Shown: positions 3,938 to 8,190 of the stretch, one piece after another
Position numbering within the stretch: position 1 is the first letter of the stretch
Layout of the letters: each line of letters begins with the position of its first letter
Translations under genes and position numbers: made by a program
NCBI GenBank assembly: GCA_022710815.1
Contig: JAKLGF010000010.1
Span: 1 to 11,689, forward strand
Direction of reading: 5' to 3'
DNA length: 11,689 nt
Source: Patescibacteria group bacterium
GTDB lineage: Bacteria > Patescibacteriota > Minisyncoccia > Minisyncoccales > JAGOPM01
Notes under the pieces: generated by a model
The model's database searches: none
The model's input: the letters and a program-made list of their open reading frames with translations, nothing else
Told to the model about the DNA's origin: nothing

Positions 3938-4816
3938 ATGCAAAATCAGCTTTTAATTTTACCTTTTGATCATCGCAGTTCTTTTGTCAAAAATCTCTTA
4001 GGATTTAGCACTCCTCTAGATGAGGAACAAAAGCAGAAAGTAAAAGAATTGAAACAGATTGTTTTTAATGGCTTCCGAGAGGCAGTGGTTAATTACGAAA
4101 ACAAGGAATGGTTTGGGATTTTGGTTGATGAGGAGTTTGGATTTGAAATTGGACAGCAAGCCAAAAGAATGGGAGTTAAGCTTTCTATTCCAGTAGAAAA
4201 GAGTGGTCAGGATGTTTTTGACTTTGAATATGGGGCTAATTTCGGAGAACATATTAAAAAGATGGATCCTGACTATGTTAAAGTTTTGGTCAGATACAAT
4301 CCTGAGAATGTAGAGAATAACAAAATTCAGATAGAAAGATTGAAATCTTTAAGCAATTATTGCCAGAACAATAATTACAAATTGTTGTTTGAATTGTTAG
4401 TTCCTCCCACTGCTAAAGATTTAGAAATTGCTGGAAACAAGGAAGAGTATGAAAAGAATTACAGAGCCGAAAAAACAGCCCGAGCTATTAGTGAAATTAA
4501 AGAACAGATTAAAGTAGATATTTGGAAAATAGAGGGATTTTCCAAATCCCAATGGAAGGAAGTAATTGAAGCTGTTGGGCCAGAAGCTCAAATAATATTC
4601 TTGGGCCGAGGAGAAAGCCAGGAGTTTGTAGAAAAGTGGCTTCAGGAAGCTGGAGAATATCAAGAAATAATTGGCTTTGCTATTGGCAGAACAATATTCT
4701 ATGATCCGCTCAAAGGATATTTGTCAGGAGCTATTAGCCAAGATAGGGCCAGAGACTTAATAGCTGACAATTTCAAACATTTTGTAGACATGTGGATAAA
4801 TCAGAAGGGCTTGTAA
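3938..4816 (+). CDS. DUF2090 aldolase-like TIM-barrel protein (IolC C-terminal domain type)
   Basis: 292 residues, resembling the DUF2090 domain that elsewhere forms the C-terminal half of IolC (5-dehydro-2-deoxygluconokinase fusions) and is related to LacD-type class I aldolases. Recognisable strand-end motifs run in barrel order: LLILPFDHRSSF (6-16), GILVDEEFG (60-68), VKVLVRYNP (114-122), LLFELLVPPT (149-158), IWKIEG (195-200), IIFLGRG (219-225) and GFAIGRTIFYDPL (246-258). The last motif, a phosphate-binding-like GRT-x-F-x-DP-L, is the strongest family marker. K115 or K197 could be a Schiff-base lysine. The kinase half is absent here. The true substrate is unknown; a phosphorylated sugar aldolase role is inference. 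The final codons and stop are part of a terminator hairpin. Confidence 0.75.
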   Translation: MQNQLLILPFDHRSSFVKNLLGFSTPLDEEQKQKVKELKQIVFNGFREAVVNYENKEWFGILVDEEFGFEIGQQAKRMGVKLSIPVEKSGQDVFDFEYGANFGEHIKKMDPDYVKVLVRYNPENVENNKIQIERLKSLSNYCQNNNYKLLFELLVPPTAKDLEIAGNKEEYEKNYRAEKTARAISEIKEQIKVDIWKIEGFSKSQWKEVIEAVGPEAQIIFLGRGESQEFVEKWLQEAGEYQEIIGFAIGRTIFYDPLKGYLSGAISQDRARDLIADNFKHFVDMWINQKGL

Positions 4817-4825
4817 AGCCCTTTT
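4805..4825 (+). terminator. Terminator formed from the end of the DUF2090 coding sequence
   Basis: AAGGGCTT (4805-4812) pairs perfectly with AAGCCCTT (4816-4823) around a three-base loop, and Ts continue to 4825. The stop codon TAA (4814-4816) lies in the loop and the first base of the right arm. Confidence 0.8.
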
Positions 4826-4826
4826 G

Positions 4827-4835
4827 TGGTATAAT
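4827..4835 (+). promoter_or_regulatory. Extended -10 promoter of the TM1266-like gene
   Basis: TGG-TATAAT is a consensus extended -10 element beginning two bases after the preceding terminator. The predicted start of transcription is near 4842, about ten bases before the ATG at 4852. No -35 is visible, since that position is occupied by the hairpin. Confidence 0.65.
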
Positions 4836-4851
4836 GAAAACAATAAATAAT

Positions 4852-5136
4852 ATGGAAGAATCAAAAATGGATTTGGCAACCATTACTATTTTGGTTACCA
4901 GTCGTCAAACACATTCTCCAGAGTTAAATAAGATATTAAGCGACAATGGCCATTTGATCATGTCGCGTTTGGGAGTGAATGTTCAACCCAAATGCATTCA
5001 AGATTGTGTTGGTTTAATTGTTGTTGTAGCTAAAGGGCATAAAGATGATATTCAGAAATTGAATGCAGACATTGATGCAATAGATGGAATATCCTCCCAT
5101 TTAGTTTTAGCTACACAAGATTTTATCTTTGATTAA
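4852..5136 (+). CDS. TM1266-like ACT/ferredoxin-fold putative regulator
   Basis: 94 residues from the ATG at 4852. The pattern (ITILVTSRQ..., ELNKILSDNGHLIMSRLGV, a central VGLIVVVAKG strand, DIQKLNADIDAIDGISSHLVL) matches the TM1266 family of small ACT/NikR-C-like proteins, annotated elsewhere as 'iron-only hydrogenase system regulator'. That family has a beta-alpha-beta-beta-alpha-beta fold that oligomerises and may bind a small ligand; it has no DNA-binding domain of its own. The start at 4852 is preferred because the TATAAT box at 4830-4835 places the transcript start near 4842, making upstream in-frame ATGs (4792, 4834) untranslatable from this promoter. ATG 4867 is an alternative. Two cysteines (PKCIQDC) are unusual and could be redox- or metal-sensitive. 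The gene is followed after four bases by the S8 peptidase, so the two are probably cotranscribed. Confidence 0.65.
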   Translation: MEESKMDLATITILVTSRQTHSPELNKILSDNGHLIMSRLGVNVQPKCIQDCVGLIVVVAKGHKDDIQKLNADIDAIDGISSHLVLATQDFIFD

Positions 5137-5140
5137 TTTT

Positions 5141-7402
5141 ATGAAAAAAATCATCGGGCTAATTTTTCTATTTGCCCTGATACCATTTTTAATTCTGGCC
5201 CAGGCTGGATTTAATGTCACTAGCCAACCAGCTAGTAACATTACTGAAACTAGCGCTACTCTCAATGCTAGTCTTTCGGGCATTGATGATTTCTATGTTG
5301 ATACTTGGTTTGTCTGGGGCCAAAGCCCAGGTGACTTAAGCAATGCTACTCCTAATTTTGGGAAACTAACTAGTGGCAGTTTTTCTGCTCAAATTAGTGG
5401 ATTGCAACCCGGAACCACCTATTACTACCAGGGAGTAACTAGAAAAGGGAATATCACTGTTTATGGTTTGCCATTGATAAATTTCACTACGCAAGGCAAT
5501 AGTACGCCTCCACCTACACCACCCACACCTCCCGTGCCTCCCACTCCAGAAGATAGTAATATTGGAAACCTAGTAGAAGGAAAAGATTTTGCCACTGGGG
5601 AAATCCTAGTTAAATTCTATTCTAATCAAATAGATTTAAGACAGGATTATGGCAATGAGAGGACATATAGCTTTGGAGCAGATAATAATTTGGATTTAAA
5701 AGAAGCAATTAAAGAAAGCAATATTGCTGTTTACAGGACTAGGCAGAACGAAACAGTGAAATCTGCCATTAGAAGATTGGGTCATAGTTATGGAGCAGAA
5801 TATGTTGAACCCAACTATATCCGCAGAGCAGCTGTTGTTCCTAATGATCCTGACTTTATTAATCTCTGGGGTCTTCAAAATTCTGGCCAATCAGTCTTTG
5901 GCTATCGCGGGCAAGCTGGAGCAGATATTAATGCTGTAGGAGCCTGGGATATTTATTCTGGTTCAAAAGCAATCAAAGTAGCTGTTGTTGATACTGGAAT
6001 TGATTACAATCATTCTGATCTTAGGGACAATATGTGGGACGGAGCTAATTGCAGAGATGAAAACAACAAACAAGCCTCTTGTCCTAATCATGGTTGGGAT
6101 TTTGTAAACAGAGACAATAATCCAATGGATGATTACAGCCATGGAACCCATATTGCTGGAACTATTGGAGCTAAGGGAAATAATGGAATTGGAATTGCTG
6201 GTATTAATTGGAATGTGAGCTTAGTAGCTCTTAAAGCTGGAAACTCCAACAACCAATTCTATATCAGCGACATTGTTAAAGCCATTAATTTTGCCACATT
6301 TAATAATATTAAGATTATTAATGCTAGTTTTTCTTCTAGCGGCTCATCAGAATCTGAAAAAGCTGCTATTGCAAAATTCAGAGATGCTGGTGGTTTGTTT
6401 GTGGCTGCTGCTGGTAATAGGGGAATTAATGTTGAAAGCAACCCAGCCTATCCTTGCTCATATAGCTTAGATAATATTATTTGTGTTGCTGCTACAGACT
6501 ATTTTGATCGTAAAGCATCCTTTTCCAATTATGGATTAGTGAGTGTTGATGTAGGAGCCCCAGGAGATAATATTTACAGTACTCTGCCAGGAAGTTATGG
6601 AATTAAAGATGGAACATCAATGGCTGCTCCTCATGTAGCTGGATTGGCTGCTTTGGTTTGGGGTTACAAACCTAATTTGAGCTACGATCAAGTTAAAAGA
6701 TATATTTTAGATAATGGAGATTCTTTGTCAGGTTTAGAAGGCAGAACTGTTACTGGCAAGAGAATTAATGCCTACAAAACTCTTAAGGCTTTAGGAGGAG
6801 TTCAGCCTCCTCAAGAGAAAAAGAGATATCTTTTTTGCGAGCCTTCTGTTAAGACTTGCTTGGGAACAGGAAACATGTATGCCAGTTCTTTAGAATGCCA
6901 GAATGCTATTGGCAAGAAATGTTTTCCCAATACAGACCAAGATGCAGATATCTGTAGTCGAGAATGCAATCCTACTACTCCAGAACAAAAAACATGCTAC
7001 AGAAAGATGTGGATATATCTAACATACAATTCGCAAGTTGGAAGTTCTTTCTGGATTAAAGGATTTAATCCCTTAAATCCTAATGCCGCTACAGGATTTT
7101 CTAACTTGCCAGAAGCGAAAAATATAGTAGACATTTTGTGGCAAGTTGGATTTACTTACAATCAGTGTTCTGAGAATCAAGCTCAACCTCAGCCCCCTGG
7201 CCAATCCCAACAATTATGGGAATGCTACAAAGGAGCTAAGATCTATACCAGCCTTAATGGAAAATTAGGAAAATCTGTTTGGAGTCAGGGAATAGGGTCA
7301 AGCGATGCCTATTCTCAGCAAGGATATGAGACAGTGGCTCAGGTAAAAGGATATGTAGACTTGCTTTCAGAGTTTGGATACCAATACAGCCAATGTAGAT
7401 AA
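5141..7402 (+). CDS. Secreted subtilisin-family (S8) serine peptidase with FN3-like N terminus and C-terminal 58-residue repeats
   Basis: 753 residues from ATG 5141, chosen because it starts a clean signal peptide (MKKIIGLIFLFALIPFLILAQ). In order: signal peptide (1-21); an FN3-like domain (about 24-115, with TSATLNASL and LQPGTTYYYQ); a Pro/Thr-rich linker (about 122-136); a subtilase propeptide-like domain (about 150-232, GEILVKF ... YVEPNY); and the catalytic domain (about 240-550). The catalytic triad is complete: D284 in VVDTGID, H334 in HGTHIAG and S493 in GTSMAAPHVAG, with oxyanion N426 in AAAGN. It is therefore a probable active extracellular protease. A Cys-rich segment (about 560-612) follows, then two repeats of exactly 58 residues (619-676 and 695-752), each starting C-Y and ending Q-C. 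No LPxTG or C-terminal membrane helix is seen, so the protein is probably secreted or held by the repeats. A terminator follows. Confidence 0.92.
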   Translation: MKKIIGLIFLFALIPFLILAQAGFNVTSQPASNITETSATLNASLSGIDDFYVDTWFVWGQSPGDLSNATPNFGKLTSGSFSAQISGLQPGTTYYYQGVTRKGNITVYGLPLINFTTQGNSTPPPTPPTPPVPPTPEDSNIGNLVEGKDFATGEILVKFYSNQIDLRQDYGNERTYSFGADNNLDLKEAIKESNIAVYRTRQNETVKSAIRRLGHSYGAEYVEPNYIRRAAVVPNDPDFINLWGLQNSGQSVFGYRGQAGADINAVGAWDIYSGSKAIKVAVVDTGIDYNHSDLRDNMWDGANCRDENNKQASCPNHGWDFVNRDNNPMDDYSHGTHIAGTIGAKGNNGIGIAGINWNVSLVALKAGNSNNQFYISDIVKAINFATFNNIKIINASFSSSGSSESEKAAIAKFRDAGGLFVAAAGNRGINVESNPAYPCSYSLDNIICVAATDYFDRKASFSNYGLVSVDVGAPGDNIYSTLPGSYGIKDGTSMAAPHVAGLAALVWGYKPNLSYDQVKRYILDNGDSLSGLEGRTVTGKRINAYKTLKALGGVQPPQEKKRYLFCEPSVKTCLGTGNMYASSLECQNAIGKKCFPNTDQDADICSRECNPTTPEQKTCYRKMWIYLTYNSQVGSSFWIKGFNPLNPNAATGFSNLPEAKNIVDILWQVGFTYNQCSENQAQPQPPGQSQQLWECYKGAKIYTSLNGKLGKSVWSQGIGSSDAYSQQGYETVAQVKGYVDLLSEFGYQYSQCR

Positions 7403-7405
7403 TTC

Positions 7406-7431
7406 AAAGAACCGCCCGAAAGGGCGGTTTT
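7406..7431 (+). terminator. Terminator after the S8 peptidase
   Basis: AACCGCCC (7410-7417) pairs with GGGCGGTT (7422-7429) around a GAAA tetraloop, followed by TT. The 5' flank is A-rich. Confidence 0.9.
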
Positions 7432-7444
7432 GAGTTATTCACAG

Positions 7445-7472
7445 TTGACCATTATCTTAATAGTAGTAAAAT
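7445..7472 (+). promoter_or_regulatory. Promoter of the PerR/Fur-type regulator
   Basis: TTGACC (7445-7450) and TAAAAT (7467-7472) are separated by 16 bases, one of the two best -35/-10 pairs in the window. Predicted transcription start is near 7479, giving a leader of about 22 bases that is almost entirely the 7477-7496 palindrome. Confidence 0.7.
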
Positions 7473-7476
7473 TTAA

Positions 7477-7496
7477 TTAATAATAATTATTATTAA
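7477..7496. promoter_or_regulatory. Perfect 20-bp palindrome, putative Fur/PerR-family operator
   Basis: TTAATAATAA joined directly to its exact reverse complement TTATTATTAA. It covers roughly +1 to +18 of the predicted transcript, where a bound repressor would block initiation. AT-rich dyads of this sort are typical Fur-superfamily boxes, although the classical PerR/Fur box has a central unpaired base and this one does not. Autoregulation of the downstream gene is inferred from position. Confidence 0.6.
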
Positions 7497-7500
7497 CGTT

Positions 7501-7884
7501 ATGGTTCGAATGACAAGTCAGAAAAAAATAATAATGGATTATCTGGCTGGAGTTAAAACTCATCCTACTGCTCAACAAGTATATGATGATGTTAAAAAAC
7601 AACTTCCGCAGATAAGCTTGGCAACTGTTTACAGGATTTTAAAGAATTTCCGGGATAAAGGACAAGTTCTAGAAATCCAAGAAGGCCAAACAGCCCATTA
7701 TGATGCCGATACATCTAATCATGTCCATTTTGTCTGCGATAGATGTGCCAAGATTTATGATATTCATCATGCAGACTGTATACCAGAAATTAAATGTACA
7801 AAGGTCGGTAAAATAAGGAGATATAATTTATATGTCTATGGAGAATGCAAACAATGTTCAAACAGAAAAACTTCTTTGTCATGA
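7501..7884 (+). CDS. Fur-superfamily metal-dependent regulator, PerR-like
   Basis: 127 residues. The N-terminal winged helix runs from about 4 to 65 (TSQKKIIMDYL, HPTAQQVYDDV, then the recognition helix SLATVYRILKNF). The C-terminal dimerisation/metal domain holds two CxxC pairs, CDRC (C79, C82) and CKQC (C116, C119), as in the structural zinc site of PerR/Fur. Residues matching the PerR regulatory site are all present: H21 (HPTA), D68 (HYD), H74 and H76 (NHVHF) and D87 (IYDI). PerR proteins use this site to sense peroxide through Fe(II)-catalysed histidine oxidation. PerR over Fur/Zur is suggested by the aspartate at 68 but not proven. The 3' end overlaps the next gene by 53 bases, and the overlap includes the functional CKQC pair, so the full length is real. 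It likely controls itself and the overlapping gene through the palindrome at 7477-7496. Confidence 0.88.
   Translation: MVRMTSQKKIIMDYLAGVKTHPTAQQVYDDVKKQLPQISLATVYRILKNFRDKGQVLEIQEGQTAHYDADTSNHVHFVCDRCAKIYDIHHADCIPEIKCTKVGKIRRYNLYVYGECKQCSNRKTSLS
7815..7820 (+). promoter_or_regulatory. Shine-Dalgarno for the NrdD-like ORF inside the regulator gene
   Basis: AAGGAG ends 11 bases before ATG 7832 and 17 bases before ATG 7838, so 7832 is the better start. It is inside the regulator's coding sequence, consistent with cotranscription and internal initiation. Confidence 0.55.
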
Positions 7885-8146
7885 TTGTCAGGCAGAAATA
7901 GAAGTTAAGGGAGAAGAATTAGTGGGGGGAAAGGTCTTAGTTTTCAAGGAAGCAGGAAAGACTTATGAAATTGCCAAATGTGATGCTTGCTATCAGAAAG
8001 ATCCCAGCTTAGCCAATTTCCAAAAATGCGAAGTCTATTCTAGAATTGTGGGATATATCAGACCAGTCAGCCAATGGAATGATGCCAAACAGCACGAATT
8101 CCAAGATAGAGTTACTTACAAAGTGGGAGGGTGCGCTTGCGATTAG
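7832..8146 (+). CDS. Small freestanding NrdD-like C-terminal (zinc plus glycyl-radical) domain protein
   Basis: 104 residues. Two CxxC pairs (C16/C19 in CHDC; C50/C53 in CDAC) precede the block CEVYSRIVGYIRPV then QWNDAKQHEFQDR (66-93). That block matches the C-terminal glycyl-radical region of anaerobic (class III) ribonucleotide reductase NrdD: R-x-x-G-Y with the radical glycine (here G74), followed by a W-N-x-x-K-x-x-E-F-x-x-R helix. In NrdD the same order holds, zinc CxxC...CxxC and then the glycine loop. The ten-stranded catalytic barrel and ATP cone are missing, and the frame is intact with its own stop and terminator, so it reads as a small independent gene rather than a fragment. A CxC occurs at the end (C101, C103). 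By analogy with GrcA/YfiD it could act as a replacement glycyl-radical part, but this is inference; a zinc-ribbon with another role is possible. Confidence 0.65.
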   Translation: MSMENANNVQTEKLLCHDCQAEIEVKGEELVGGKVLVFKEAGKTYEIAKCDACYQKDPSLANFQKCEVYSRIVGYIRPVSQWNDAKQHEFQDRVTYKVGGCACD

Positions 8147-8152
8147 TACATT

Positions 8153-8177
8153 AAAAAAGGGGGACGCCCCTTTTTTT
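8153..8177 (+). terminator. Terminator after the NrdD-like gene
   Basis: AAAAAAGGGG (8153-8162) pairs perfectly with CCCCTTTTTT (8167-8176) around GACG and ends in a run of seven Ts. Confidence 0.92.
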
Positions 8178-8190
8178 GATTGGATTTTGA

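Follow-up and report, generated by a model that had tools for sequence, protein, structure and literature searches.

The locus described here raises the question why a protein of 104 residues, resembling only the last part of the anaerobic (class III) ribonucleotide reductase NrdD, is encoded by a gene of its own in overlap with the gene of a PerR-type metal sensor. A precedent for such proteins is GrcA/YfiD, a spare glycyl-radical domain that rescues pyruvate formate-lyase (PFL) after cleavage by oxygen. An earlier note on the same DNA had proposed an equivalent spare part for NrdD under control of the regulator. That reading is supported overall by the data presented below: comparisons of profile, radical glycine, coexistence with NrdD and pairing with the regulator all failed to refute it. 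The window (the whole stretch of 11,689 nucleotides that was analyzed) lies on contig C2 of an assembly of 619,744 bases in 123 contigs, with a completeness of 87%.

The Fur-type gene pair and its surroundings

Two open reading frames on the plus strand, 7501-7884 (127 residues) and 7832-8146 (104 residues), overlap by 53 bases. The following features were recognized in and around them:

7412 to 7427, no strand assigned: GC-rich hairpin separating the operon from the subtilase gene ahead of it; the scan shows it as terminator-like on the minus strand (7429-7410)
7445 to 7472, plus strand: sigma-70-like promoter TTGACC-16-TAAAAT, 10 of 12 positions, by consensus match only
7477 to 7496, no strand assigned: perfect 20-bp palindrome just downstream of the -10, candidate operator of a Fur/PerR-type regulator
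7501 to 7884, plus strand: Fur-family, PerR-type metal-dependent regulator, 127 residues (PF01475, best PDB match PerR 2fe3)
7817 to 7820, plus strand: GGAG within the Fur gene, by eye a possible ribosome-binding site for the small protein
7832 to 8146, plus strand: freestanding NrdD-type glycyl-radical protein, 104 residues (Pfam match and homologues)
7877 to 7990, plus strand: zinc-ribbon-like half, C16xxC19 ... C50xxC53, with cysteines conserved in 49 aligned sequences and metal binding predicted
8027 to 8110, plus strand: glycyl-radical loop CEVYSRIVGYIRPVSQWNDAKQHEFQDR (C66-R93), recognized by its invariant columns, with the codon of Gly74 at 8051-8053
8150 to 8180, plus strand: intrinsic-terminator-like hairpin with a T run, after the small gene

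Framed by the promoter, the palindrome and the terminator-like hairpin, the pair appears to form a separate unit of two genes, and the description of the small gene as intact and equipped with its own terminator stands. Judging from the homologues, a start at 7838 (102 residues) is possible as well. The promoter scan returned nine sigma-70-like sites versus 3.7 in shuffled sequences; four terminator-like sites were found in the region versus 0.4 expected from shuffles. A related palindrome, TTATTANTAATAA, matches at 11 or more of 12 positions ahead of 17 of the 26 Fur loci (on average 0.445 in shuffled sequences and at most 3 in 200 shuffles), a count that is not an independent test as the consensus was picked from the same 26 loci on which it was scored. 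At these loci the palindrome is frequently located just behind TTGAC, and in 24 of the 26 the best palindrome has TTGAC or TTGAT no more than 45 bases ahead of it (a raw count). The arrangement of palindrome and promoter would fit autorepression of the pair, and known PerR biology would then have the pair derepressed by peroxide.

Three further genes were noticed upstream of the operon. Directly adjacent (5129-7402) lies the gene of a 757-residue S8 subtilase with a fervidolysin-like prodomain. It is preceded by a gene (4792-5136) for a small protein with a match to PF21699 (36.5 bits, above cut-off), the family of TM1266-like regulators of the iron-only hydrogenase system, and with one below cut-off to TIGR03959, and by a gene (3938-4816) for a DUF2090/DeoC-like aldolase family protein.

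The assignment of the first gene product as a peroxide-type metal sensor, as had been suggested together with the overlap, is supported by its sequence on several grounds. The protein scores 82.5 bits against PF01475 (cut-off 23.1) and its best match in the PDB is PerR of B. subtilis (2fe3, E 1.6e-23). The five regulatory metal ligands of PerR (H37, D85, H91, H93 and D104) and its four structural cysteines (C96, C99, C136 and C139), numbered after a PerR reference sequence that agrees with the 2fe3 alignment, are all present in each of 25 intact regulators, that of the window included; 27 Fur genes were found beside a loop gene, and the two broken ones were left out of this count. In difference to PerR itself, the regulator does not reach the cut-offs of the NCBIfam PerR equivalog models (85.7 bits versus 180 and 82.9 versus 200), and its gene overlaps a glycyl-radical gene. 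The latter is the rule: the two genes overlap at 24 of the 25 loci with an intact Fur gene, with start codons as set by the ORF caller.

The small protein matches the Pfam family NRDD (PF13597; E 8.8e-13, 48.2 bits, cut-off 26.2) with residues 41-96, which correspond to model positions 514-562 of 562, that is, to the last 49 positions at the C terminus only. Seven NCBIfam models of NrdD match it as well, each far below the whole-protein cut-off. PF13597 was the sole Pfam family reported at E<=1, so that a Gly_radical domain of the PFL type (PF01228) is absent. A profile of 49 sequences searched against the PDB aligned Gly74 with Gly621 of T. maritima NrdD (E 0.007, the loop being short; two unrelated entries followed at E 0.4), a residue given as the glycyl radical site of that enzyme in PMC4493059. 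With the 104-residue sequence alone, the PDB search returned chance matches only. In the 49 aligned sequences C16, C50, C53, E67-R71 and V73-Y75 are invariant, among others, and C19 is nearly so. The loop motif with GY is found at all 69 loci of the window's order and CxxC...CxxC at 68 of them. Thus the radical glycine, the conservation of which had been in question, is kept at every one of these loci.

The claim that the protein carries the zinc and radical pattern of the NrdD C terminus without the barrel held, with one correction. The loop with the radical glycine is that of NrdD, as both the profile and the alignment with Gly621 indicate, and both the ATP cone and the ten-stranded catalytic barrel with its finger-loop cysteine are absent. 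The zinc half has a spacing of its own: from the last cysteine of the second CxxC to EVYSR there are 13 residues, versus about 6 in NrdD of Patescibacteria. Because of this spacing, which is unlike that of the C-terminal zinc site of NrdD, the zinc half, as read from the sequence, does not simply repeat the zinc finger of NrdD. The possibility of an unrelated zinc ribbon was ruled out by the profile match and the loop alignment, in line with the HMM comparison that the earlier note had proposed.

In nine compared pairs of the small gene, dN ranged from 0.05 to 0.22 and dS from 0.56 to saturated; dN/dS was 0.05-0.17 in the six pairs with a finite dS, the other three being saturated. The small gene is under purifying selection. 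These values, together with a loop motif that is kept at all 69 loci in the 68 carrier genomes of the order, make it hardly credible that the protein is a decaying, functionless remnant of an nrdD duplication, even though the barrel is missing from the assembly of the window's genome, as such a remnant would have it. A fragment of a frameshifted nrdD was likewise ruled out, both by the selection on the small gene and by the coexistence of NrdD with an intact loop, which is encoded adjacently or on other contigs.

Distribution and genomic partners

A protein search returned 130 homologues at E<=1e-3, of which 120 were listed; it admits only proteins of about 57-182 residues, hence full-length NrdD could not appear. 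A scan of genomes yielded 583 loci, and among the best 80 of these 31 (L032-L062) were of the zinc-ribbon type, the remainder being either NrdD proper or short, ribbon-less loop genes. The hosts of the 31 include Patescibacteria, Desulfobacterales, other Deltaproteobacteria, a member of the Smithellaceae, an archaeon of the Methanophagales and records whose title gives no more than 'bacterium'.

In the window's order, the zinc-ribbon type was present in 68 of 247 genomes (matches at E<=3.3e-20), at 69 loci in total as one genome (G447) has two. The pairing with the regulator, for which a survey had been suggested, recurs at 27 of these loci; another 27 are located directly behind nrdD, with gaps of at most 66 bases and three overlaps by the ORF caller, and 15 have neither partner. 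The generalization that every freestanding locus overlaps a Fur gene was thereby ruled out. No Fur gene was detected in the fetched stretches of the Deltaproteobacteria, Methanophagales and virus loci.

Several individual loci deviate from the common layout. The two freestanding loop genes of G447 (L166 and L176) each have an adjoining Fur-family gene of their own, and at L144 and L203 the Fur gene is broken while the adjoining loop gene is intact. At L167 the loop gene is preceded by a gene of the ArsR HTH type (assigned by eye) instead of Fur, and other regulators may be coupled as well. Finally, a protein of 171 residues (P0014) has both FUR and NRDD domains and represents a fusion or, as seen by eye, a frame change at the overlap.

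The presence of the small gene is associated with that of its presumed partner. Among the other genomes reached via zinc-type loci (the genome of L057 left out) all 30 have the NrdD barrel. In the window's order an NRDD match beyond the loop was found in 65 of 68 carriers versus 113 of 179 non-carriers (Fisher P 3e-8, uncorrected for kinship). The survey for a full-length nrdD, as advocated earlier, thus revealed the barrel in nearly all carriers of the order, though not in the window's own assembly. The activase NrdG2 scored above cut-off in all 34 genomes given, i.e. that of the window, the 30 reached via zinc-type loci and three with the short loop kind; only matches above cut-off were counted, since the model also scores below cut-off in most controls. 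Many NrdD proteins of the order lie in open frames of 1000-1500 residues and match the model in pieces, which suggests inteins or insertions.

In the 87% complete assembly of the window, no NrdD barrel was found although NrdG2 is present on contig C78, where no NrdD is located next to it (L174, 1112-1837, away from any nrdD and followed by a gene that by eye is adenylate kinase-like). No class I/II reductase was found in this genome (PF02867) or in four further Fur-type genomes, and over the order such reductases occur in just 4 of 26 Fur-type genomes. Class III is therefore usually their sole reductase. Most simply, the missing NrdD of the window's genome reflects a gap in the assembly. In two other Fur-type genomes, G330 (99% complete) and G441 (93%), no NrdD, no NrdG2 above cut-off and no class I/II reductase were found, while the regulator and loop genes are intact. 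Either an nrdD-nrdG operon has fallen into a gap in both assemblies, or the pair is able to persist once NrdD is gone.

The sequence of the freestanding loop follows that of the NrdD with which it shares a genome. In 28 genomes with the two at separate loci, its identity to its own NrdD was 0.81 versus 0.72 to those of others; for 20 adjacent pairs the values were 0.913 and 0.79. None of 10,000 permutations attained either difference. The loop had its best match, or a tie for it, in its own NrdD for 10 of the 28 separate and 17 of the 20 adjacent cases. Moreover, a change from W-N to W-H is common to both proteins: of the 28 separate pairs nine are H-H and 17 N-N, and in both discordant pairs it is the small protein that has N and NrdD that has H, with none the reverse. 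The comparison left out genomes in which NrdD was eroded, masked, loop-less, unfetched or absent. Shared ancestry or gene conversion may partly cause the resemblance, as several pairs are of one genus.

These data bear on the view that the small protein is a redox sensor or a partner of the Fur-family regulator, with a glycyl loop that serves signalling and not catalysis by NrdD. The gene overlap at 24 of 25 intact-Fur loci is in line with that view, as is the intact pair that G330 and G441 have kept without any detected reductase. We nevertheless consider it very improbable, given the 27 loci behind nrdD, the Fur-less stretches in Deltaproteobacteria, Methanophagales and viruses, and the way in which the loop tracks NrdD.

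NrdD with and without an intact loop of its own

Three of the 26 Fur-type genomes (G000, G330 and G441) lack the barrel and one (G342) was left out, so that 22 NrdD ends could be inspected. Of these, 21 have an intact loop (17 of 18 in one set and 4 of 4 in another), among them that of G351/G239 from the window's family; G352 gave no match in its fetched stretch. Because NrdD keeps its own loop there, the small protein of the Fur-type genomes would be an extra copy, as expected from a spare part.

A different situation is encountered in the Deltaproteobacteria. Nine NrdD proteins were compared, eight from Desulfobacterales or records titled Deltaproteobacteria or Delta 3 and one from Smithellaceae, and all nine have kept the MCCR finger loop. 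The radical glycine has been lost in three (L132, L136 and L138; two Desulfobacteraceae), where the freestanding loop is intact. Of the other six, two (L122 and L124) are altered around the glycine but have kept GY, three are intact and one is masked. Between L136 and L138 the barrel is 94% identical and the loop 30%; the corresponding dN and dS values are 0.033 and 0.405 for the barrel (dN/dS about 0.08) and 0.692 and 1.288 for the loop (about 0.54). The freestanding genes of the same two genomes (L038 and L041) are 91% identical, with a dN/dS near 0.07. On the simplest reading of these sequences, it is the freestanding loop that functions in both genomes. In L122 and L124 the altered loops are still constrained (0.04 and 0.24) and so need not be dead.

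In Patescibacteria the built-in loop may be missing altogether. At seven loci (L035, L040, L044, L050, L053, L058 and L062) a loop-less NrdD adjoins a zinc-type gene, and in other members of the phylum it adjoins a ribbon-less loop gene of 40-60 residues. In a sample of the phylum, 62 of 239 genomes had an NRDD match and 60 the barrel (G000 has the loop only and G011 a weak match). As read from coordinates, the loop match is detached from the barrel, or a stop precedes the loop, in 34 of these 60; for 13 of them (L018, L019 and L021-L031) the ends of the ORFs were checked. The short loop kind was also found beside or near a loop-less NrdD in Micrarchaeota, in a record of Nanoarchaeia, in Hippea (where NrdD is partial) and in Acetothermia, and in Halanaerobium saccharolyticum at a distance of about 0.8 kb. 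In G157 some 31 kb separate the loop match from the loop-less NrdD, and in G109 the two are on different contigs, indicating that a split pair need not adjoin. In some lineages the freestanding loop thus seems to be the sole glycyl domain of NrdD, which goes beyond what the earlier note had envisaged.

It could be argued from these splits that NrdD is divided in all lineages and has the small protein as its obligate second subunit, without any role in repair, and that the link to Fur represents iron or redox control of the whole of ribonucleotide reduction. The loop-less barrels with a separate loop gene in the 34 Patescibacteria and the glycine-less NrdD of the three Deltaproteobacteria are in agreement with such a subunit. 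We regard the argument as unlikely to hold in its general form, as the intact loop in 21 of 22 inspected Fur-type genomes makes a second one unneeded for basal activity there.

Viral copies, proposed mechanism and meaning

Freestanding loops are also carried by viruses. In ANMV-1, the host of which is an uncultured archaeon, a loop gene of the CHDC type is annotated as anaerobic ribonucleoside triphosphate reductase, and the ANMV-1 paper mentions an oxygen-sensitive ribonucleotide reductase (PMC4372165). The best 80 of 339 virus loci, chosen by likeness to the window protein, were scanned together with ANMV-1; of these 81, 73 are freestanding, seven are NrdD and one had no ORF match. The ribbon pattern fits 32 of the 73, and some of the other 41 also have a ribbon; a few are located at contig ends. 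For 50 of the 73 the whole record was searched, and in every one the loop was the sole NRDD match and the barrel was absent; many of these records are fragments, and none is rated at least 90% complete. Phage T4 carries a PFL spare part, Y06I (PMC8683613), to which the viral carriage of the loop is a telling parallel.

Taken together, we think it quite probable that the small protein is a separately made glycyl-radical domain that acts in trans with the NrdD barrel and that, in the window's clade, is probably a PerR-paired and peroxide-inducible spare. Of its two parts, a trans-acting radical domain for class III ribonucleotide reductase is likely, and the PerR-controlled role as spare part in this clade is probable. 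The process could proceed as follows. The C-terminal loop of NrdD itself would be cut by oxygen, or be lost as in some lineages. The small protein would then dock, perhaps via the zinc ribbon, and insert its RIVGY loop into the barrel, after which the radical-SAM activase of the NrdG2 type would generate the radical on Gly74. From there the radical would move, in the usual way, to the cysteine of the finger loop. The small gene and that of the PerR-type repressor are, in the window's clade, probably transcribed together from a promoter with the palindromic operator. Because of this proposed co-transcription, peroxide or metal stress would lift the repression and supply the spares. Docking, radical installation, repair, co-transcription and control by peroxide are all steps that we infer.

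Several observations count against this explanation. These are the NrdD-less assembly of the window, the genomes G330 and G441, the 42 of 69 loci without an adjacent Fur gene and the 15 with neither partner, the spacing of the zinc half that is unlike NrdD, and the scores of the regulator far below the cut-offs of the NCBIfam PerR models. YfiD is moreover described as constitutively expressed in PMC8683613, so that stress control is not, by that account, a feature of the known spare part.

The resemblance to known systems is nevertheless considerable. Like E. coli GrcA/YfiD and T4 Y06I, the protein is a small freestanding glycyl-radical domain that copies the C-terminal end of a glycyl radical enzyme, viral copies exist, and it would replace a loop cut by oxygen. 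It differs from GrcA/YfiD in that the loop is of the NrdD and not the PFL type, that a zinc ribbon has been added, and that the partner would be a ribonucleotide reductase. With NrdD it shares the C-terminal loop with the radical glycine and an activase of the same family in the same genomes; it lacks the barrel and the ATP cone, and its zinc ribbon is spaced otherwise. The regulator resembles PerR in its nine ligands and in its closest structure. The class II reductases are not known to have a glycyl-radical domain, unlike the small protein. They do offer a likeness in that a reductase can be expressed in two parts, as reported for the split class II enzyme of Pseudomonas aeruginosa (PMC4520616).

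In E. coli NrdD the chain is cut at the radical glycine. Class III enzymes are destroyed by oxygen through cleavage of the backbone (PMC2795772). According to PMC8683613, validated spare parts are limited to PFL, and its authors consider it a tempting speculation that other glycyl radical enzymes have spare parts as well. In the open-access literature we found no description of a freestanding NrdD loop or of a spare part for NrdD.

The small protein is a candidate spare part for an enzyme that makes the precursors of DNA, and it occurs in bacteria, archaea and viruses. The natural losses of the built-in NrdD loop make the idea of a spare part directly testable. On balance we lean, by a little, towards a class III reductase with a detachable and exchangeable glycyl-radical subunit, which would be a peroxide-inducible spare in one setting, the sole radical domain in another and, when carried by a virus, a piece that sustains the NrdD of the host, whether or not cut by oxygen, for viral DNA synthesis. 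Several short proteins that are named 'anaerobic ribonucleoside-triphosphate reductase' consist of the loop piece only, and so does the product of the gene behind the 'oxygen-sensitive ribonucleotide reductase' of ANMV-1. If the proposal is true, the way in which class III reductases are counted and annotated would change.
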